In this document: in pieces, positions 1,758 through 10,600 of the stretch | Layout of the letters: every line of letters starts with the position of its first letter | Numbering within the stretch: position 1 is the first letter of the stretch | Source: Eggerthellaceae bacterium | Lineage (GTDB): Bacteria > Actinomycetota > Coriobacteriia > Coriobacteriales > Eggerthellaceae | Direction: 5' to 3' | Assembly: GCA_017459485.1 (NCBI GenBank) | Contig: JAFUCW010000051.1 | Location: forward strand, 1 to 12,439 | DNA length: 12,439 nt | The notes under the pieces: generated by a model | Databases searched by the model: none | What the model saw: only the letters and a program-made list of their open reading frames with translations | What the model was told of the DNA's origin: nothing | Position numbers and translations under genes: made by a program

Positions 1758-4700
1758 CTACCCTGCGAAGTACGCAACGCCGCCTTCGATCAAGGGTTGG
1801 TAGGTGTAGTCGGGGATGTTTTTGTACAGGCCGGCGCCCGAGCGTTCGGTGTGCCCCATCTTGCCAAGGATGCGCCCGTCGGGGCTGGTGATGCCCTCGA
1901 TCGCCCAGATGCTTCCGTTGGGGTTGGCGTCAAGGTTCATGGAGGGCTCGCCGCCTTCGTTGACGTACTGTGTGGCAATTTGGCCTGCCTGCGCCATCTG
2001 GTAGAGCAACTTTTCGCTGGCAACGAAGCGGCCTTCGCCATGGCTGATGGGGACAGTGTGGACATCGCCCACGCTGCAGCGCGAAAGCCACGGCGACAGG
2101 GTGGACCCTACGCGCGTGCGCACCATCTTAGATTGGTGGCGGCCAAGCGTGTTGAACGTGAGCGTGGGGCATTGTGCGTCCATGTACTGGATGTCGCCGA
2201 ATGGCACCAGTCCTAGCTTCACAAGTGCCTGGAAACCGTTGCAGATTCCCAAGATCAATCCGTCGTTGGAAAGCAGCTCGCGCACGGCTTCGGTTACCTC
2301 GGGTGCGCGGAAGAAGCTGGTGATGAACTTTGCGGAGCCGTCGGGCTCGTCGCCGCCGGAAAAGCCGCCGGGGATCATGAGGATCTGCGCTTTGCGAATG
2401 CGCTCGGCAAGCTCGTGCGTGCTTTCGGCGACTGCGGCAGGGGAGAGGTTGTTCACGATGAAGGTTTCGGCCGCAGCGCCCGCACGTTCGAACGCCGCCG
2501 CACTGTCGTATTCGCAGTTGTTGCCGGGGAACACGGGGATGATGACGCGGGGTTTTGCCGCTGCTGCAACCAGCGGGGCAGTGGCACGCGCCCCTTCTGT
2601 TCCTGCGTCCTCTTCGTCTTGCGCCACGCGGTCAAGGATGTCCGCGCCTTGCGGACCATGGAGGCCAGAATCGGAGAGGGGGCTTGCCGCGTCCTGGTCG
2701 ACTGACGTTGTGCGGTATTCCGGAACGGGATTGAGCGTGTCCCCGTCTGCGCGATAGGGGAACACGGGCTCGAGCGTGCGCTCCCATGCCTCTTGAAGCT
2801 GCGCAAGGTCGATGGTTTCGCCTGCTGCTTGCCAGGCGTACGTGTCCGAGACCGTGCCGATGCGCGCGACGTTCACACCCGGGTTTCCCTCCAGCGGTGC
2901 CGCATTCGCATCAAGCTCCATGACGAACGCACCGTGGGTGGGCGCAAACATCATGTCGGCGCTGGCGATGGCGGGCAGTTCCAGGCCAAGCTGGTTGCCT
3001 ACGCACATCTTGAACAGCGCGTCTGCCATGCCGCCCGACCCGATGGCGCTGGCGGCCTTCACGGCCCCGCTGGCAATCAGCTGCTGCACGAAGTCGAACG
3101 TTTCGGTCATCGACGCTGGAACGGGGCGCAGCGACCCGGCTTCGTAGCGCGGGGCAACAAGCACCACTTGGCTGCCTGCTTGCTTGAACTCGGGCGACAC
3201 GATGTCTTGGACATGGCCCGTTCCCACGGCGAAGGACACAAGCGTCGGCGGTACGTCCAGGTCCTCGAAGCTGCCGGACATGGAGTCCTTTCCGCCGATG
3301 GCGCCAACGCCCAGGTCCACTTGTGCCATGAGCGCGCCAAGCACTGCGGCGGTCGGCTTGCCCCAGCGTTCGGGAACGTCGCGCAGCTTTTCGAAGTACT
3401 CCTGCAGCGTCAAGTACATGGTTTCGCGTGCGAACCCGGTGGCGATCAGCTTCGCGATGCTGTCGACCACGGCCAGGTAGGAGCCGGTAAACGGGTCGGC
3501 GGAAGAAAGGTAGGGGTCGAAACCCCAGGCCATGCCCGACACGCTGGTGGTCTGTCCCAGCACGGGGAATTTGGCCACCATGGCCTGTGCGGGCGTTAGC
3601 TGCATGCGTCCGCCGAAGGGCATGAGCACCGTGCCCGCCCCAATGGTGGAGTCGAACCGCTCCACCAACCCTTTGCGCGAGCAGTAATTAAGGTCGCTCA
3701 CCAAAGCGTGCATCCGTTCGGCAAGTGTCTCGCCGGCAAACTGCGGCCCTTCCTTTTGCTCAATTTGGTGGTCATTCGAAGGAGTGCCAGCCGCAGGAAC
3801 AGGCACAACCACTCTGCCTTCTGCAGGTTCCGCCAGACGGGTACCAGTGTAGGGCGCGGGGCCGGGGGCCCCTTGCGTCCCGGGTTCCGCCAGGCCAGCC
3901 CCAGCGTAGGAGGGCGCAACCGAGGGGGCCGGAGCCCCATCTGCGACCGTCTGAACACCATTCCTGCTAGCCTGCGAAGCAGGCTCGTAAGATGCATGAA
4001 GCAGCGGAGCGCACGATGAACCTTCCGAATCGGCGAAGCCTGATTCGGAAGTTCGAGCAGCGAAGCGGCGCGTCGCAGATGGGGCTCCGGCCCCCTCGGT
4101 TGCGCCCTCCGGAGCGACCACGTGCACGTCTTGCGACTTGGGCGCGCCGTTGGAGGCAAGGAATGCGCGGCTTACGTCCACGATGGTCGTGCCCCTCCAC
4201 ACCATGCGCACGCGCGCGTCGTCGGTCACCGTGGCAACGGGCGTGGCCTCCAGGTTCTCTTCGCGCGCATAGCCCAGGAACTCTTCGACGTCTTCGGGGG
4301 CAAGAGCAACCGCCATGCGCTCCTGCGACTCGGAGATTGCAAGTTCGGTGCCGTCAAGGCCGTCGTATTTCTTCGGCACCTTGTCCAACTCGATGAACAG
4401 GCCGTCGGCAAGTTCGCCAATGGCGACCGACACGCCGCCTGCGCCGAAGTCGTTGCAGCGTTTGATCAGGCGGCAAGCGTCTTTGCGGCGGAACAGGCGC
4501 TGGATTTTGCGCTCGACCGGGGGATTGCCCTTCTGCACTTCGGCCCCGCAGGTCTCCAGGCTTTCCACCTTGTGTGCTTTGGAAGACCCGGTGGCGCCGC
4601 CGATGCCGTCGCGGCCCGTGCGCCCGCCCAGCAGCACGACCACGTCGCCCGGGGCAGGTTCTTCGCGCCGCACGTGGCTGGCGGGCGTGGCACCGAGCAC

Positions 4701-4895
4701 CGCGCCGATCTCCATGCGCTTGGCGGCGTAGCCGGGGTGGTAGAGCTCGTCGACCTGGCCGGTGGCAAGGCCGATCTGGTTGCCGTAGCTGGAGTAGCCT
4801 GCAGCTGCGGTGGTCACCAGCTTGCGCTGGGGCAGCTTGCCGGGAATCGTCTCCGAAACGGGGACGAGCGGGTTGGCGGCGCCAGTCACACGCAT
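1758..4895 (-). CDS. purL: PurL C-terminal fragment (after amber codon), with palindromic insertion
   Basis: This open frame of 1,045 residues continues PurL in the same frame and begins at an ATG only one codon after the TAG (TAG GCC ATG). Translation could therefore resume by termination-reinitiation, although no Shine-Dalgarno precedes this ATG. It carries the rest of the first synthase half (VVLLGGRTGRDGIGGATGSS), the second half (ERFDSTIGAGTVLMPFGG, then AVGTGHVQD) and the complete glutaminase with Cys in GICNGFQ and the His-Glu pair in GKMGHTER. The stretch encoded at about 3740-4118 is Ala/Pro/Gly/Ser-rich and absent from typical homologues; it coincides with the inverted-repeat insertion. 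A second low-complexity linker (about 2545-2750) precedes the glutaminase. Without readthrough or complementation by the N-terminal fragment this piece is probably inactive as a synthase, though the glutaminase fold should still form. Confidence 0.75.
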   Translation of the reverse strand: MRVTGAANPLVPVSETIPGKLPQRKLVTTAAAGYSSYGNQIGLATGQVDELYHPGYAAKRMEIGAVLGATPASHVRREEPAPGDVVVLLGGRTGRDGIGGATGSSKAHKVESLETCGAEVQKGNPPVERKIQRLFRRKDACRLIKRCNDFGAGGVSVAIGELADGLFIELDKVPKKYDGLDGTELAISESQERMAVALAPEDVEEFLGYAREENLEATPVATVTDDARVRMVWRGTTIVDVSRAFLASNGAPKSQDVHVVAPEGATEGAGAPSATRRFAARTSESGFADSEGSSCAPLLHASYEPASQASRNGVQTVADGAPAPSVAPSYAGAGLAEPGTQGAPGPAPYTGTRLAEPAEGRVVVPVPAAGTPSNDHQIEQKEGPQFAGETLAERMHALVSDLNYCSRKGLVERFDSTIGAGTVLMPFGGRMQLTPAQAMVAKFPVLGQTTSVSGMAWGFDPYLSSADPFTGSYLAVVDSIAKLIATGFARETMYLTLQEYFEKLRDVPERWGKPTAAVLGALMAQVDLGVGAIGGKDSMSGSFEDLDVPPTLVSFAVGTGHVQDIVSPEFKQAGSQVVLVAPRYEAGSLRPVPASMTETFDFVQQLIASGAVKAASAIGSGGMADALFKMCVGNQLGLELPAIASADMMFAPTHGAFVMELDANAAPLEGNPGVNVARIGTVSDTYAWQAAGETIDLAQLQEAWERTLEPVFPYRADGDTLNPVPEYRTTSVDQDAASPLSDSGLHGPQGADILDRVAQDEEDAGTEGARATAPLVAAAAKPRVIIPVFPGNNCEYDSAAAFERAGAAAETFIVNNLSPAAVAESTHELAERIRKAQILMIPGGFSGGDEPDGSAKFITSFFRAPEVTEAVRELLSNDGLILGICNGFQALVKLGLVPFGDIQYMDAQCPTLTFNTLGRHQSKMVRTRVGSTLSPWLSRCSVGDVHTVPISHGEGRFVASEKLLYQMAQAGQIATQYVNEGGEPSMNLDANPNGSIWAIEGITSPDGRILGKMGHTERSGAGLYKNIPDYTYQPLIEGGVAYFAG
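3909..3947 (+). repeat. Left arm of 39-bp perfect inverted repeat in purL
   Basis: This is identical over 39 bp to the reverse complement of 4072-4110; the match stops at both edges (3908 and 3948 mismatch). It begins GGAGGGCGCAACCGAG on the plus strand. Confidence 0.95.
4072..4110 (-). repeat. Right arm of 39-bp perfect inverted repeat in purL
   Basis: This is the reverse complement of 3909-3947 without mismatch. Because purL reads through both arms on one strand, the two copies are translated in opposite orientation. They give different Pro/Ala/Gly-rich peptides (EGATEGAGAPSAT and DGAPAPSVAPS). Confidence 0.95.
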
Positions 4896-4898
4896 GGC

Positions 4899-5954
4899 CT
4901 AGTAGACGTACGAACGGCCGGAAAGCGGGTCACGGATGGCGCCTCCCACGCAGGTGGCCGCACCGCCGAAGGGCTCGATTTCGGTGGGATGGTTGTGTGT
5001 TTCGTTCTTGAACAGGAACAGCCAGTCCTCGTCAGTGCCGTTCACGTCCACTTTCACCTTCACGGTGCACGCGTTGATTTCAGCGGATTCGTCAAGGTTT
5101 GTCAGGATGCCGCGGCTGTTCAGGTATTTGGCGCCGATGGTTCCCATGTCCATTCGGCACAGCGGCTTGTCCTCGCGGCCCAGTTCGCGCCTCATGGCAA
5201 GGTAGCGGTCGAACGCTTCCCGTACCGCATCGTCGTCGATCTGCACGCGGGTGAGTTCGGTGCCGAACGTGGTGTGGCGGCAGTGGTCGGACCAGTAGGT
5301 GTCGACCATCTTCACTTCGGTGATCGTGGGCGGACGGCCCTCTTCGCGGAAGTAGCTTTGGAACAGCTTGATGTCGGCCAGGTCCATGGCAAGTCCACGT
5401 TGCTCGATGAACGCGGCAAGCTCGGTTTCGTCAAGCGCGTCGAATCCTTCAAGCACTTCCACGTCGGCGGGTTCGGTGTAGTCCATGGCCAGCGTGTCGG
5501 GCAGGTCCATGAGCGCGGCACGCGCTTCCACGGGGTTGATGACGTAGTTCATGATGGCGGGCAGGTCGGCGCGGCGCAGATGCCCGTAGAGCACGTAGAC
5601 CCTCGCGCTGCGTACGGTGGGGCGCTCGCCGCACGATATCAGCTGGATGCACTCGCTGGCAGAGTCGGCGCGCTGGTCGAACTGTCCGGGCAGGTACTCC
5701 ACGGGGAATGCGGCAGCGCAGCCTTCTATCTCGCGCTCGATGTTGCGGTAGGTCAGGTCCACCTGCGGTTCGGAGAACACGGTGGGAATGCAGTCCTCGA
5801 ACAGGCGCTGCCCAATACCCTCCACGTCGTAGCGGTTGATGATGCGCAGGTTTTCCAGACGTTCGATGCCCAGGATGTCGCGCAGTTCCGAGAGCAACTG
5901 CTGAGCCTCGACGTCGAAACCGGTTTTCTTTTCAACGAATACGCGATAAACCAT
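4899..5954 (-). CDS. purL: PurL N-terminal fragment (to amber codon)
   Basis: This is the 351-residue upstream part of PurL: the PurS-like N-terminal domain, the linker (KLFQSYFREEGR) and the start of the first AIR-synthase-like ATP-binding domain, ending at GGAIRDPLSGRSYVY. It stops in the middle of that domain, so it cannot be a natural stand-alone subunit of the PurS/PurL/PurQ type. The MVYRVF start at 5954 is preferred over an in-frame ATG 63 nt further up because only the former has a Shine-Dalgarno (AAAGG, 7-nt spacer) and matches the family's usual N-terminus. Confidence 0.75.
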   Translation of the reverse strand: MVYRVFVEKKTGFDVEAQQLLSELRDILGIERLENLRIINRYDVEGIGQRLFEDCIPTVFSEPQVDLTYRNIEREIEGCAAAFPVEYLPGQFDQRADSASECIQLISCGERPTVRSARVYVLYGHLRRADLPAIMNYVINPVEARAALMDLPDTLAMDYTEPADVEVLEGFDALDETELAAFIEQRGLAMDLADIKLFQSYFREEGRPPTITEVKMVDTYWSDHCRHTTFGTELTRVQIDDDAVREAFDRYLAMRRELGREDKPLCRMDMGTIGAKYLNSRGILTNLDESAEINACTVKVKVDVNGTDEDWLFLFKNETHNHPTEIEPFGGAATCVGGAIRDPLSGRSYVY

Positions 5955-6015
5955 GAACGGACCTTTCTGCCGCACGGAAAAGAGTGCATTTGGGCTGCAT
6001 TTGGGACAGTTCATC

Positions 6016-6021
6016 ATTATA
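6016..6021 (-). promoter_or_regulatory. Putative -10 element of the purL promoter
   Basis: A perfect TATAAT on the minus strand would place transcription start near 6009 and give a leader of about 55 nt before the purL ATG. No good -35 hexamer lies 16-18 bp upstream, so the promoter may need an activator or may not be the real one. Confidence 0.4.
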
Positions 6022-6069
6022 CATGCGCAGAGGCGCCTTCTGTGCTGCCGTAGGAGCGGTCGCAGCTCT

Positions 6070-6107
6070 CGTTAAACCATGGCAGGTACCCCGCTAAACC
6101 ATGGCAG
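6070..6107. repeat. Direct repeat of 16 bp with CCATGG core upstream of purL
   Basis: CGTTAAACCATGGCAG (6070-6085) and CGCTAAACCATGGCAG (6092-6107) differ at one position. Their starts are 22 bp apart, about two helical turns. They lie just upstream of the putative purL promoter. They resemble neither the Bacillus PurBox nor the E. coli PurR site. Confidence 0.6.
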
Positions 6108-6112
6108 CTACA

Positions 6113-6190
6113 AAATGTGTACATTTTTTCATATTATGAACTACAATAGAATGCAAACTAAGGTTATACAACGAATAAATGTACACATTT
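6113..6190. promoter_or_regulatory. Inverted pair of TGTACA-centred sites (purL side)
   Basis: AAATGTGTACATTT (6113-6126) is matched by its exact reverse complement AAATGTACACATTT (6177-6190), enclosing 50 bp. Each arm is itself a dyad (AAATGT-nn-ACATTT). The inner 12-mer AATSTGTACATT also occurs as a pair ahead of the AbiEi-like gene at identical spacing (64 bp between copies, 62 bp between TGTACA cores). It most likely binds a regulator; which one is unknown. Confidence 0.7.
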
Positions 6191-6306
6191 ATCAAAAGAT
6201 GGCGAGGATTTCACCGCGGCCGCGGAAAAGCACTGCGACGACCCCATTCCGGTGGCGCGTCGTGCCCGAAGGCATTCGAATGCGGTGAAGCAGGATGTGG
6301 CGCGGC

Positions 6307-7524
6307 CTACAGTTCGACCATGCACTCGATTGCTTCCTGCGGGCCGTCTACGACCTTGAAGCCGCCGACGAATCTGGCCAGTTTGATGTCGCGTTCGTGC
6401 TTGCCTGGCAAAAGAGACATGACAAGCTTGTGGCGTTCGTCGGTGAGCGCCATGAGCGAACATGCGCGGCGCTGTGCTTCGAGCGACTGTCCCGTTTCGC
6501 TTTCGACAGCGGCAATCAGCCGCATGACCAGCTGCTCTATTCCGCCAGGCTCGATCAGGTCTTCTTTCACGACAGGGAGCACGGTGTAGCCGGCAGATGC
6601 AAGCTCGCGGTTGCGCCGCAGGTCGTCGACGGCTTTGGCGCGCACGTGGGACATCGTTGTTTCAAGAATCTCTTGGGGATACGCGCTTTCTGGGTGGGTT
6701 GCTGCCTCGGCGGCGGCACGCGCGACAGCAGCAAGGTCAAGATGAACCATGCCGTCGTAGTTCAGGCCAACTTTCGTGCCCGAGACCAAGATATCGGGAA
6801 CGCGCGTGCTGTCCTTTGTTGCCTCTTCGCCATCCTGAATGGAAACGCGAGGGTTGAGGACAAGGGAGTCGAAGCTAAAGCCAAGGTCGTCTGCACGCAT
6901 GCGCAAGAGGGCGGCGACAAGGGACTCCATGGGCGACCAGGCGTTGTCGTCCACGAAGCGCACCATTTTGCGGGCCACCTCTTTTCCGCGGACGTTTTTG
7001 ACCTGATCGATGAAGGCAGCGATGCGCTCTGCCGACGTGACCGGCTCGACGCCGAAGGTGACGGGCCCGCACGCGGGGTCGGCGGCGTCGCGGGAGAAGG
7101 TGCCGCACAGTTCGTGCCCGAGCATCACGAGCTCCATAGGGGACAGCACTGTAGCCATTTCGATGAAGACCAACTCGGGGCAGCTGAACACCGTCTGGTT
7201 CGATGCCCCTTTGCTTTCCGCGTTTTCCACAGGGACGAACGATTTCGGCGGAATGCCCGAGGCGTAGACCGAGCAGGTGGAGTTCACCAGGCGCACGCGA
7301 GCTTCGGCATTGGGGACGGCAATGTCGAGCGGGGTTGCCTTGTCCAAGCATGACCCAAGCCCAAGCGCTTCGAACCCGAACGCCGAGCGCGTCCATTTCT
7401 TGCGAGACGAATGGGACGGAAGGGGAAGGTCGGTCCGCTTTTCGAACATGGTGCGGGGCGATCCGTTTGCACGAAGCGCGCGAATAACGCTCAGTGCGCT
7501 CCTTTTGTTCAAGGCGATGGACAT
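6307..7524 (-). CDS. AbiEi/DUF559-like protein with degenerate PD-(D/E)XK endonuclease fold
   Basis: The protein has 405 residues. The middle (SCPELVFIEMATVLSPMELVMLGHELCGTF, about 114-143, then DNAWSPMESLVAALL, about 193-207) matches a family often found in Coriobacteriia and annotated as hypothetical or AbiEi-related. The C-terminal part (about 215-345) resembles a DUF559/Vsr-type nuclease: PDILVSG with Asp244, KVGLNYDGMVHLD, then DDLRRNRELASAGYTVLPV. Where homologues have an acidic residue before YDG (usually VEYDG), this one has Asn255, so nuclease activity is doubtful. The ATG at 7524 has AAAGGA 8 nt upstream. It stands alone between purL and a transporter, with no partner toxin or antitoxin next to it. 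A paired TGTACA operator lies upstream. Function is unknown; phage defence is only an inference from distant AbiEi likeness. Confidence 0.75.
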   Translation of the reverse strand: MSIALNKRSALSVIRALRANGSPRTMFEKRTDLPLPSHSSRKKWTRSAFGFEALGLGSCLDKATPLDIAVPNAEARVRLVNSTCSVYASGIPPKSFVPVENAESKGASNQTVFSCPELVFIEMATVLSPMELVMLGHELCGTFSRDAADPACGPVTFGVEPVTSAERIAAFIDQVKNVRGKEVARKMVRFVDDNAWSPMESLVAALLRMRADDLGFSFDSLVLNPRVSIQDGEEATKDSTRVPDILVSGTKVGLNYDGMVHLDLAAVARAAAEAATHPESAYPQEILETTMSHVRAKAVDDLRRNRELASAGYTVLPVVKEDLIEPGGIEQLVMRLIAAVESETGQSLEAQRRACSLMALTDERHKLVMSLLPGKHERDIKLARFVGGFKVVDGPQEAIECMVEL

Positions 7525-7579
7525 GGGCCAGTTCCTTTCGTTGGTGCAATGCGCACAGGGGCGTGGTCTTCAGCCAGAA

Positions 7580-7655
7580 AATCTGTACATTATTTCTCGC
7601 AATGTATCATGATAGGCTGAAATAGAGAAGAGCTGATTGAAAAAATGTACAGATT
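7580..7655. promoter_or_regulatory. Inverted pair of TGTACA-centred sites ahead of the AbiEi-like gene
   Basis: AATCTGTACATT (7580-7591) and its exact reverse complement AATGTACAGATT (7644-7655) enclose 52 bp. The proximal copy is about 55 bp upstream of the ATG at 7524, where it could cover or flank a promoter. Copies start 64 bp apart, exactly as in the purL-side pair. A third TGTACA at 7662-7667 lies outside the pair. Confidence 0.7.
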
Positions 7656-7669
7656 ACTGCGTGTACAAA
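7636..7669 (-). terminator. Possible terminator of the NSS transporter gene
   Basis: On the minus strand, 28 bp after the transporter stop, two TGTACA copies (7662-7667 and 7646-7651) can pair as a 6-bp stem with a 10-nt loop, followed directly by ATTTTTTC. The stem is short and AU-rich, so termination would be weak, and one copy is shared with the operator-like pair. Confidence 0.3.
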
Positions 7670-7694
7670 CCAACTTTGCGCGAAGGGAACAGCG

Positions 7695-9074
7695 CTACCC
7701 GGTGACTACGGGCACCCAACCCATGATGAGCACCACGATGATCAGCACCGGAACGACATAAGTCATGTAGGCGCGGGCCCATTTGGGGTACTTCGCCCCT
7801 GTGCCCTTGTCTGCTTCGGCGACGAAATTGTCCCATCCCCAACCGCTTTTGCGCGTGCAGAACAGCAGAATGACCAGCGCTCCTATGGGCAGCAGGTTGT
7901 TCGACACGATGAAGTCCTCGCTTGCCTGGATGTCGCCGATGTGGGGAAGGGTGCAGCCCGACCACACGTTGAATCCCAGGGCGCAGGGAAGGGACAGCAG
8001 AACAAGCAAAACGCCGTTGATCAGCGTAGCCTTGCCGCGCGGCATGTTCCACTGGTCCATGGAAAACGCGATGATGTTCTCGAACACGGCAATGACAGTC
8101 GAAAGCGCAGCGAAGCTCAAGAATACGAAGAACAGCGTGCACCACAGCTGCCCCAAAGGCATCTGGCCAAACACGTTCGGCAGCGTAACGAACACAAGGC
8201 CAGGGCCCGCGCCTGGCTCGACGCCGACTGCGAAGCAGGCGGGGAAGATGATCAAGCCGGCCATCAGTGCAACGCCTGTGTCGAGCGCCCCGATGCGCAG
8301 GGACTCTCCCATAAGCGAATGGTCGCGACCAATGTAGCTGCCGAATATAAGCATGGACCCGATACCCAGCGAAAGCGTGAAGAACGCCTGGCCCATGGCA
8401 GCATATGCGGCCTGCCCGAAGCCGGACAGGCCCCCGCCGAGCAGGTTGCCGAAGTCGGGCATAAGGTAGAACTTGATGCCTTCGGCAGCCCCCGGCAGGG
8501 TCATCGAGCGGATCACCAGCAGCGCCATGACCAATAGCAGCGCGAGCATCATGATCTTGGTGACGCGCTCGACGCCTCCTTGCAGCCCAGCAGCGCATGC
8601 CGCCAGGCCGATTGCGCACACGACCACCATCCACAAGATCATTTCCCCGGGGTTGGCGAGCAGTGTGTCGAACACGGCTCCCACTTGGTCGGGTGTGGCG
8701 CCGTTGAACGTGCCTACGGCGCTTTTTTGCACGTAGGCAAGCATCCATCCTGCCACGGTGGTGTAGAACATCATGAGCAGGTAGTTGCCCACGAGCGCCA
8801 TCCATTTGACCATGTGCCACTTGCTGCCTTTAGGCTCGAGCACGTCGTAGGCACGCGCGGGTCCGCGTTGGGCGCCGCGGCCAACGGCGAATTCCATAGC
8901 TAGGATTGGCAGGCTGAACAGTACCAGAAACAAGATGTACATGATCACGAAGGCGCCCCCACCGTATTGCCCGGTGATGTAAGGGAAGCGCCATACGTTG
9001 CCCAGGCCAATTGCGCAACCAGCACTGATAAGTAGGAATCCAAGTCGGCTTGCGAACTGTTCTCGTTGTGCCAC
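7695..9074 (-). CDS. Sodium-dependent transporter, neurotransmitter:sodium symporter (NSS/SNF) family
   Basis: The protein has 459 residues, normal for bacterial NSS proteins, which import amino acids or related amines using Na+ with a LeuT fold. TM1 has the family signature ISAGCAIGLGNVWRFPY, with the unwound region that binds Na+ and substrate. TM6-like SLGIGSMLIFGSY and TM8-like FLSFAALSTVIAVFENI segments also fit. About 11-12 hydrophobic helices are visible and no C-terminal extension. I chose GTG at 9072-9074 because AGAAGGAG lies 5 nt upstream and the result (VAQREQFASRLGF) matches family N-termini; the open frame extends to 9101 without better signals. An ISL3 element begins only 39 bp upstream of this start, so the native promoter has been displaced. 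Transcription may now come from the IS or from read-through. Substrate is unknown. Confidence 0.92.
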   Translation of the reverse strand: MAQREQFASRLGFLLISAGCAIGLGNVWRFPYITGQYGGGAFVIMYILFLVLFSLPILAMEFAVGRGAQRGPARAYDVLEPKGSKWHMVKWMALVGNYLLMMFYTTVAGWMLAYVQKSAVGTFNGATPDQVGAVFDTLLANPGEMILWMVVVCAIGLAACAAGLQGGVERVTKIMMLALLLVMALLVIRSMTLPGAAEGIKFYLMPDFGNLLGGGLSGFGQAAYAAMGQAFFTLSLGIGSMLIFGSYIGRDHSLMGESLRIGALDTGVALMAGLIIFPACFAVGVEPGAGPGLVFVTLPNVFGQMPLGQLWCTLFFVFLSFAALSTVIAVFENIIAFSMDQWNMPRGKATLINGVLLVLLSLPCALGFNVWSGCTLPHIGDIQASEDFIVSNNLLPIGALVILLFCTRKSGWGWDNFVAEADKGTGAKYPKWARAYMTYVVPVLIIVVLIMGWVPVVTG

Positions 9075-9113
9075 GACATCTCCTTCTGCTCTTAGGAACA
9101 AGTAGACATTTTA

Positions 9114-9164
9114 GGCCCTTCGCGGTTTTTAGTGGGTAGCACAGGCGGGCAGCTGGGGGAAGTG
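9114..9164 (+). repeat. ISL3 left inverted repeat
   Basis: 51 bp are identical to the reverse complement of 10461-10511. One mismatch and then five further matching bases extend the similarity to 9170. Confidence 0.95.
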
Positions 9165-9194
9165 TAGTTTCGCGCGGGGCCGAGCGGTATCATT

Positions 9195-9221
9195 CTCCAC
9201 GTCAACGGAGGAACGTGGAGG
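9195..9221 (+). promoter_or_regulatory. Hairpin sequestering the ISL3 transposase ribosome binding site
   Basis: CTCCACGT (9195-9202) pairs perfectly with ACGTGGAG (9213-9220) around a 10-nt loop. The right arm contains all but the last base of the Shine-Dalgarno GGAGG (9217-9221) for the ATG at 9228. Transcripts entering from outside would carry the fold and have the site blocked, a control known in principle from other insertion sequences. Confidence 0.55.
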
Positions 9222-9227
9222 CAACCG

Positions 9228-10496
9228 ATGAACCCTCAATCTCAGATGCTGGCAGCCCTGATCTCGAAATCGCTCAACCTCGGCCCGGAGTGGACGGTGG
9301 TCGACGTCGAGATGCGCGAGTGCGACCCGGAGCCCGACGAGCTGCACGTCTACGTCGAGCGGACGCCCGGGCACGCCCTTAAGTGCCCGAAGTGCGGCGC
9401 GATGCACGGCGCCTACGACACGCGCAAGCGCACGTGGCGCCACCTGGACATCTGGCAGTACAAGACCTACATACACTGCGAGGTCCCGCGCCTGGACTGC
9501 GGCGACGGCAAGCCCGTCACCGCCGAGGTGCCCTGGGCTGCGCCCGACGCCAAGCACTTCACCGCGCTGTTCGAGGCGCAGGTGCTGGTCATGGCGATGT
9601 CGTCGATGCCGGTGGCGGGCATAGCCGGGGTCGTGCGCGAGCACGACACGAGGATCTGGGCGATGCTGGGCCGCATCGTGTCGAAGGCCCACGCGGAGGC
9701 CGACTTCTCCGGCGTGACCGACGTGGGCGTCGACGAGACCGCCCGCAGGCGCGGCCACAACTACCTCACGAGCTTCGTCGACCTGGACGGCGAGCGCGTC
9801 ATGGTCTGCGCGCTCGGGCGCGACGCCGGCACGGTGGCCGAGTTCGCTCGCGAGCTGGAGGCGCACGGCGGCGACCCCGGGGCCGTCGCGGTCGTCACCT
9901 GCGACCTGTCGCCTGCGTTCGCCAAGGGGGTCGCCGAGCACCTGCCCAACGCGGAGCGCGTGGCCGACCGCTTCCACGTGATCCAGCTCGCGACCAGGCA
10001 GCTGGACAAGGTGAGGGCCGCCGAGGCCAAGGAGTCCAAGGAGAAGAGGGCGCTGCTGTCCCGCACGAAGTACATCTGGCTCAAGAACGAGTCGAGCCTC
10101 ACCGAGGGGCAGGCGGAGAGGAAGCGCAGCCTGGCCAAGGAGCACTTGAAGACCTCGCGCGCCTGCGCGATGAAGGAGGCGCTGCAGGCCGTCTACGAAT
10201 GCGGGACGCGCGAGGAGGCGGAGTCGGAGCTAGACGCGCTGTGCAGCTGGATCATGCACTCGAACGTGCCGCAGATGAAGGCCGTGGCCAAGACCATACG
10301 GGAGAACAAGGCCGAGATACTCAACTACTTCGACCACAGGCTGACCAACGCCGTGCTGGAGGGCATGAACTCGGTCATCCAGTCGGCCAAGAGGCAGGCG
10401 CGCGGGTTCAGCAACCTGGAGTACTTCAAGACCATCATCTACCTGAAACTGGGAAAACTGCACTTCCCCCAGCTGCCCGCCTGTGCTACCCACTAA
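9228..10496 (+). CDS. ISL3-family transposase
   Basis: The protein has 422 residues, full length for ISL3. An N-terminal zinc-finger-like domain has CPKCG (Cys53, Cys56) and paired Cys84/Cys91. The DDE catalytic core shows Asp169 in VGVDETARRRGHNY, Asp226 in VVTCDLSPAF, and the Glu at about 378 in NAVLEGMNSVIQSAKRQARGF. VADRFHVIQL downstream of the second Asp is also characteristic. No frameshift or stop is seen, so the enzyme is probably active. The ATG at 9228 has GGAGG 6 nt upstream, itself inside a hairpin. The C-terminus is encoded by the right inverted repeat. Strong G/C bias at third positions, more extreme than the flanking genes, marks it as an incoming element. Confidence 0.95.
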   Translation: MNPQSQMLAALISKSLNLGPEWTVVDVEMRECDPEPDELHVYVERTPGHALKCPKCGAMHGAYDTRKRTWRHLDIWQYKTYIHCEVPRLDCGDGKPVTAEVPWAAPDAKHFTALFEAQVLVMAMSSMPVAGIAGVVREHDTRIWAMLGRIVSKAHAEADFSGVTDVGVDETARRRGHNYLTSFVDLDGERVMVCALGRDAGTVAEFARELEAHGGDPGAVAVVTCDLSPAFAKGVAEHLPNAERVADRFHVIQLATRQLDKVRAAEAKESKEKRALLSRTKYIWLKNESSLTEGQAERKRSLAKEHLKTSRACAMKEALQAVYECGTREEAESELDALCSWIMHSNVPQMKAVAKTIRENKAEILNYFDHRLTNAVLEGMNSVIQSAKRQARGFSNLEYFKTIIYLKLGKLHFPQLPACATH

Positions 10497-10511
10497 AAAC
10501 CGCGAAGGGCC
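10461..10511 (-). repeat. ISL3 right inverted repeat, overlapping the transposase 3' end
   Basis: This is the perfect complement of the left repeat. The last 12 codons of the transposase (ending LHFPQLPACATH) and its TAA lie mostly inside it, so the repeat is also coding sequence. Confidence 0.95.
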
Positions 10512-10600
10512 TCTTTTTCTTTGGATGGAACAAGTGCGTCGATGTTGCTGGTCTCGTTGATTTCGATGTTTTCGTTGCTGGTTGATTGGTGCTCGTCCAT
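10493..10600 (-). pseudogene. Small leader ORF truncated by the ISL3 insertion
   Basis: The start ATG at 10598-10600 has a strong Shine-Dalgarno (AAAGGAG, 6-nt spacer) and, further up, an extended -10-like TGCGATAAT (10630-10638, minus). About 29 native codons (MDEHQSTSNENIEINETSN and on), polar and rich in Asn, Glu and Ser, precede the ISL3 end, after which the frame runs six codons into the inverted repeat and stops. It was probably the start of a gene or leader peptide in front of the NSS transporter. If the IS is removed at 9114/10511, the frame gives 36 codons ending 17 nt before the transporter GTG. If one more base belongs to each IS end, the frame instead runs straight into the transporter. 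I do not recognise a family, and no membrane segment is present. Confidence 0.55.

Follow-up and report, generated by a model that had tools for sequence, protein, structure and literature searches.

Intergenic elements with paired inverted arms and a conserved core in an Eggerthellaceae genome, possible duplex docking sites for a putative protein

The window analysed here, a stretch of 12,439 nucleotides from an Eggerthellaceae draft genome, carries purL, a gene for a 405-aa hypothetical protein (6307..7524, minus strand), an SNF-type transporter gene and two 76-bp intergenic elements. Element 1 (6114..6189, minus strand as judged from its core) has the 405-aa protein gene on one side and purL on the other, and element 2 (7580..7655, minus strand) has the transporter gene on one side and the 405-aa protein gene on the other. 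A preliminary description had reported four exact copies of the 12-mer AATSTGTACATT at 6114-6125 (+), 6178-6189 (-), 7580-7591 (+) and 7644-7655 (-), forming two pairs in inverted orientation whose starts are separated by 64 bp, all of which we could confirm; the enclosed DNA, given there as 50-52 bp, is 52 bp in both pairs. With up to two mismatches allowed, the window contains six matches to the 12-mer against 0.54 expected, the highest count in 200 shuffles being four.

Element 1 consists of a left arm, AATGTGTACATT, with its T-tract (6114..6130, +), a conserved core, TGCATTCTATTGTAGTTCAT (6136..6155, -; two mismatches to the core pattern), and an inverted right arm (6173..6189, -). The corresponding parts of element 2 are a left arm, AATCTGTACATT, with a T-rich tract (7580..7596, +), an inverted right arm (7639..7655, -) and a degenerate core position (ATTTCAGCCTATCATGATACAT; 7602..7623, -) which was placed by alignment and is weaker, having been missed by the three-mismatch core search. 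Abutting element 1, at 6070-6111, are two similar 20-bp copies 22 bp apart (CGTTAAACCATGGCAGGTAC / CGCTAAACCATGGCAGCTAC). Plasmid and phage searches gave no match for 6050-7700.

The gene between the two elements had been labelled AbiEi-like, a name which its product does not bear out, with no Pfam match over the cut-off, no NCBIfam match and no PADLOC match. The 405-aa protein has a confident predicted structure (pLDDT 90.3) and named relatives in an Eggerthellaceae bacterium and Olsenella; comparison of the model with the PDB gave no match with E < 0.001 and a weak hint of a Vsr endonuclease (probability 0.44). From its residue pattern we presume that it may have a Vsr/DUF559-type nuclease fold. 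In four sister genomes this gene does not lie between purL and the transporter gene. An in-frame TAG at 4899-4901 (-) divides purL of the window into ORFs at 4899-6017 and 1758-4895, while the purL region of the sister genomes G001, G002 and G005 has open frames of 1028-1266 aa; the TAG may be a genuine nonsense codon or a mistake of the assembly. Inserts that keep the frame and seem to derive from repeats apparently occur in purL (window ~3760-4150), where the insert aligns to its own inverse (70 %), and in dxr (L029 847-1056), where it matches other places in loci of the same genome (L029, L019, L017) and in loci of sisters (L201, L149, L199). Such inserts recall the protein-coding palindromic elements of Rickettsia. 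An insertion sequence of the ISL3 family occupies ~9113-10512 beside the transporter gene; its transposase is encoded at 9228-10496, and its inverted ends are long and nearly identical to each other.

The two window pairs are copies of one genome-wide intergenic element family. We identified 31 full elements, 28 from fetched loci and three by model search, in the draft genome (2.43 Mb in 504 contigs, 72 % complete, with several elements at contig ends; the sole strain of its species in the analysis). Each is 74-76 bp long with inverted ends and a conserved core, and all elements found lie between genes. Model R1, whose training set comprised 28 of the 31 copies, both window elements among them, scores element 1 at 56.0 bits and element 2 at 49.4 bits. 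A search of the same genome to E=10, in which 150 of 214 candidates were scored, recovered the same 31 elements; every full-length copy scored at least 37 bits on its better strand. Lengths are 76 bp in 17 elements, 75 bp in 12 and 74 bp in two, with arm starts 64, 63 and 62 bp apart respectively, so that the spacing seen in the window proved nearly fixed without 64 bp being universal; genome-wide, the inverted pairs are not randomly spaced but stand 62-64 bp apart in 31 of 31 full elements. The exact 12-mer occurs 37 times in the genome (none for the reversed-pattern control), 34 copies falling inside 25 of the full elements and the other three at two contig ends (C132, C183) and in one broken copy (C273:7810); it is absent from six of the 31.

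Partial copies run off the ends of contigs C353 (72 of 76 positions), C183, C319, C152 and C132, that on C132 overlapping the end of C22 by sequence. Contigs C132, C152, C183, C319, C353 and C388 end inside elements, for which population variation was considered as a cause; we do not use this as a sign of such variation, since short repeated arms alone can break an assembly. The sole broken copy away from contig ends is connected with the element at L026 3086-3161, a flanking segment of which is repeated ~4.6 kb off, at 7711, with the left arm kept and the rest of the element lost.

The elements share three blocks at nearly fixed distances, namely a 17-bp arm with an inward T-tract, a core of ~20 bp and an inverted arm, with a left spacer of ~15 bp that carries little information and a right spacer of ~5 bp on either side of the core. 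The arm consensus is AATSTGTACATW, built on the dyad AATGT-GT-ACATT, and on its inner side runs into the T-tract and then mostly pyrimidine; of 60 arm ends, 56 have a purine as the base just outside the arm. Over the 24 arm positions there is no departure from consensus in 22 of the 31 elements, one in seven and three in two, a conservation partly selected by the search, as the elements were found through their arms. Literature text searches returned the arm 12-mer just in papers on other subjects, and a 10-base part of it combined with operator and repressor only in a paper on nattokinase production.

The interior had been described as unconserved, which holds for the spacer part and fails for the ~20-bp core. 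With 28 elements mutually oriented, inner information amounts to 17.3 bits compared with 6.6-7.8 bits in six shuffled-interior sets treated alike, an excess due to the core. This takes a form A, approximately TTSMAKACWATAGTAGTTCAT, in the 76-bp elements, element 1 among them, and a form B, approximately TGTTRCWTATAWGYATAA, in most 74/75-bp elements (both consensuses written by hand). The genome-wide core search used the form A pattern, not form B alone, and at up to three mismatches gave 20 matches, 17 of them in elements, compared with four for the reversed control; as the three outside all have three mismatches, form A is confined to elements. Left spacers look near random apart from a slight excess of pairs at 10/15 identity (four pairs against 0.5 expected), which we tentatively ascribe to position-wise base preference. 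Element GC is 28 % as against 58 % across the fetched loci of this genome.

Inverted arms could be conserved as the stem of a hairpin or as two duplex sites, which differ in what they predict for paired positions. Arm pairing stands at 89.3 % of cells as against 88.7 % with shuffled partners, and 63 of 500 shuffles attain the observed arm covariation score. Unpaired arm positions are found at position 12 in 16 of 28 elements and at position 4 in five of 28, the covariation term of the consensus fold is ~0, and the only compensatory sign is a C-G for G-C at position 4 in three sequences. Single copies do fold well (z < -2.5 in five of the six folded), owing to their inverted arms. The independent variation of the arms argues for recognition as duplex rather than as a hairpin. 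A hairpin or RNA element was set aside on the lack of arm covariation and on Rfam, which returned nothing for 5900-7800 at an E cut-off of 1. Arm centres lie 62-64 bp apart, which at a helical repeat of 10.5 bp makes 5.9-6.1 turns and puts them on about one face of the helix. The earlier suggestion of a protein that binds two sites on one face is thus consistent with the nearly fixed spacing and the independent arms; the part of it that had purL and the AbiEi-like gene share this protein did not survive.

The neighbouring genes are diverse and mostly housekeeping, without an evident common function. They include aconitase, purL, DXP reductoisomerase, cytidylyltransferase, HisB, an aminotransferase, DNA ligase, peptidyl-tRNA hydrolase, a YchF-type GTPase, a response regulator, a histidine kinase, pyruvate ferredoxin oxidoreductase and transporters (gene calls were made with a simple script of our own, and the names cdsA, dxr and hisC were assigned from Pfam families). 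Both neighbours were called for 25 of 28 elements, of which 22 lie between co-directional, two between convergent and one between divergent genes; the three later elements, read from ORF lists, add two convergent and one co-directional, for totals of 23, four and one. At least one gene end precedes 27 of the 28. Divergent sites (1/25) compare with 17.3 % of gap length (P=0.054) or 14.6 % of gaps (P=0.10), and in co-directional gaps the upstream stop is the nearer to the element in 16 of 22 (P=0.052), a bias towards 3′ ends that is suggestive only. BIME-1-type elements are reportedly located at the 3′ ends of transcription units.

A repressor that draws the two arms together in a DNA loop and so controls the genes downstream, at ~35 sites that include those of purL and the AbiEi-like gene, would account for the duplex-type conservation, the same-face spacing and the location of 23 of the 28 elements between co-directional genes. 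Element 1 contains one promoter-like match, in which the TGTACA of its left arm and the TACAAT of its core stand 18 bp apart, and a promoter role for its arm and core is a possibility. Yet this is the sole sigma-70 promoter-like match in 5900-7800, where 0.9 are expected; four of the 28 elements lie between convergent genes, preceding no gene start; the neighbours lack a common function; core orientation relative to genes is mixed by our own reading; and sister genomes are without the element. We consider such an operator quite improbable. The narrower idea that purL and the AbiEi-like gene form a regulon was dropped, since the pair is one of many such elements across the genome, next to genes of unrelated kinds; nor is it conserved upstream of orthologues, no copy having been found in five same-genus genomes.

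The flanking of the AbiEi-like gene by two elements, together with its absence from this position in four sisters and a three-block layout resembling arm-and-core sites, would also suit a cassette system in which that gene is the cassette and the elements are its attachment or recombination sites. Most elements, however, do not flank a gene in pairs, a scan of 40 neighbouring genes turned up no recombinase or transposase, and the gene between the two L010 elements is conserved next to aconitase in four sisters, so that we rejected a cassette or att site as very unlikely. Hardly any weight falls on a very short invertible segment, for which the inverted arms around ~50 bp and the presence of cores in both orientations relative to genes would speak, as no invertase is present among the genes identified in the window, no copy was found in two orientations and the neighbours are unrelated.

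To trace the history of the family we searched 59 relatives with the model (60 genomes in all, under stricter filters and with at most 80 candidates scored per genome); only the genome of the window gave full matches, the best E value elsewhere being 0.044 for a partial match, and the five same-genus genomes had no match. The exact pair pattern, searched with no candidate limit, was found in 0 of 40 relatives. For 12 of 15 elements whose neighbours were sought in same-genus genomes, both were adjacent in at least one sister, the exceptions being L028 and the two window elements, and at all 12 loci with shared gene order the sisters are without the element. The estimated gap is shorter in sisters at 11 of the 12, while L032 has a longer gap in two of three sisters. 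Between cdsA and dxr the gap is 128 bp, 74 of them the element, as against an estimated 70-72 bp in three sisters and 29 bp in a fourth; the hisC-hisB gap is 298 bp against 32-54 bp in three sisters, and the ligA-side gap 169 bp against 46-94 bp in three. The excess is seldom the length of the element (18 to 149 bp at L024, ~400-440 bp at L011), so other DNA must have been gained or lost too. Gap estimates with large unaligned ends are unreliable (L023 in G003, L019 in G005, L030 in G002, L014 in G005), and sister intergenic DNA is too diverged for exact junctions. These comparisons make it likely that the element spread by lineage-specific insertion. A near-duplicate of at least 5 bp, as expected of a target-site duplication, was found in 0 of 30 flank pairs, the shuffled mean being 1.4.

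Other inverted-pair families in the sisters were sought in G002 (400 kb), G004 (49 kb) and G001 (46 kb), with loci of our genome as positive control, and no cluster was found apart from two G002 arms with one similar pair each. Viral contigs contained no exact pair, with a single arm in eight of them, and the GTDB species collection contained one, of 74 bp, on a Christensenellaceae contig (L078 3563-3636); both collections may omit the species of the window. The Christensenellaceae pair has no core and no T-tracts, scores 14 bits and lies upstream of what we read as an XRE-type-looking regulator gene, and we take it for a coincidence or for an operator with no relation to the family. It may nonetheless point to a type of regulator able to read TGTACA palindromes.

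Among 203 same-length pairs of interiors, core included, no two are more than 66 % identical. This speaks against young copies, whose interiors would match. Old and useless copies would have lost arms and core to decay, and we found no decayed full-length copy in a search that recognised elements by their arms. On the simplest reading the elements would have inserted long ago, with selection then acting on each copy, although a copying mechanism that renews the spacer could also account for the pattern. Independent arms, unlike interiors and the lack of any decayed full-length copy in the search are better explained by protein sites maintained in duplex DNA than by newly moved copies or by hairpins under selection.

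In the accounts consulted here, dispersed bacterial palindromic repeats are described mainly as GTAG/CGTC-type REPs, the GTAG type being tied to RAYT transposases. The closest kinds to the present family are BIME-1 and REPIN repeats, and we file it as a variant of the dispersed inverted-repeat kind. In enterobacteria BIME-1 or RIB elements are described as two inverted REPs around an IHF site (PMC2817692), and share with our elements two close, opposed palindromic units around a core in intergenic DNA, a likeness of arrangement only, with binding predicted. They differ in that the arms reported here are A+T-rich, without the REP consensus, where BIME-1 as described in PMC2817692 is made of GTAG-type REPs, and in that the starts are 62-64 bp apart and ~35 copies occur in one genome. 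To our knowledge the core resembles no IHF consensus.

REPINs, as outlined in PMC3116915, have inverted conserved ends, a less conserved spacer and fixed end distances, and all 31 elements agree with this outline; in contrast to them, ours show no arm covariation, almost no singlets and an internal conserved core. The GTAG or CGTC tetranucleotide tag of REP ends described in PMC3733652 is absent from the element ends, all 62 arms beginning with AAT or AAA. Two RAYT-type genes are present in the genome (C405 and C279), and no arm at up to two mismatches was found at either locus, the C405 gene being cut by a contig end in a genome 72 % complete; these loci gave no support to a RAYT link. Because the arms are non-REP, show no GTAG and no covariation, and no RAYT with such flanks was seen, we do not claim membership of either class. 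MITEs are likewise short, with inverted ends, many copies and, as is likely here, lineage-specific insertion; the present elements differ in having unrelated interiors and no target-site duplication, and exact arms in the incomplete assembly occur only in elements, at contig ends and in the one broken copy, and no parent transposon bearing element ends was found there. A literature search for MITE together with Coriobacteriia returned nothing, and none of the matches listed for Eggerthella with repetitive extragenic held Eggerthella.

A selfish miniature transposon of REPIN or MITE type, without host function, which a transposase acting in trans moves either as a hairpin or through its inverted ends, would explain the conserved inverted ends, the less conserved spacer of nearly fixed length and the intergenic, lineage-specific distribution; the REPIN account (PMC3116915) gives the same outline, and the genome has RAYT-type genes. 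We nevertheless find it unlikely, if a serious possibility: covariation, tag and target-site duplication are all wanting, neither RAYT locus has arms nearby (one of the genes runs off its contig), there are no recent near-identical copies, and the one broken copy is the only single arm found away from contig ends. Two further systems were compared with the family. Stoperators of cluster A mycobacteriophages are described as many dispersed asymmetric sites for one protein in phage genomes (PMC9283540), similar in their dispersal and different from paired, three-block, chromosomal elements. The AbiEi operator comprises, according to PMC7319586, two inverted repeats of 23 bp within the promoter of abiE, 3 bp apart, with 13 bp within each pair for Rv2827c, as against 17-bp arms with starts 62-64 bp apart next to a protein that has no AbiEi family match.

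We put at about even the reading in which the family is a predicted docking site in duplex DNA for a putative protein with an insulating or topological role. The elements would have spread by insertion between genes through an enzyme acting in trans, none being apparent in the incomplete assembly. A dimeric protein might then occupy both arms, some six helical turns apart on one face, with the A/T tracts helping the DNA to bend and the core read by the same protein or a second, and the complex at gene 3′ ends could serve as an insulator or topology site, as BIME-1/RIB elements may. Protein, bending, movement and role are here all inferred from the arrangement and conservation of the sites. A bolder version, to which we give distinctly less credence and which we think rather improbable as a whole, envisages a species-specific network of ~35 or more three-block docking sites that was spread by insertion, is now kept copy by copy by selection and is read by a lineage-specific DNA-binding protein so as to insulate or organise the chromosome, which would make it a new, non-REP architectural class in Actinomycetota.

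The family thus has the outline of known dispersed repeats under another rule, with a helical phase that is nearly constant, arms of duplex type, a core set apart from them and neither decayed nor recent copies found. If the docking-site reading is true, it would suggest that elements of this sort originate independently and can turn into protein sites maintained one by one. One 76-bp duplex is a concrete bait for finding the protein, and the 31 sites are a natural set for measuring the effect of the element on neighbouring transcription. A possible second inverted-repeat family was observed at L011 ~2793, with the arm GTAGTAAAAATG and a spacing of 54, and a similar pair is present in two other loci.
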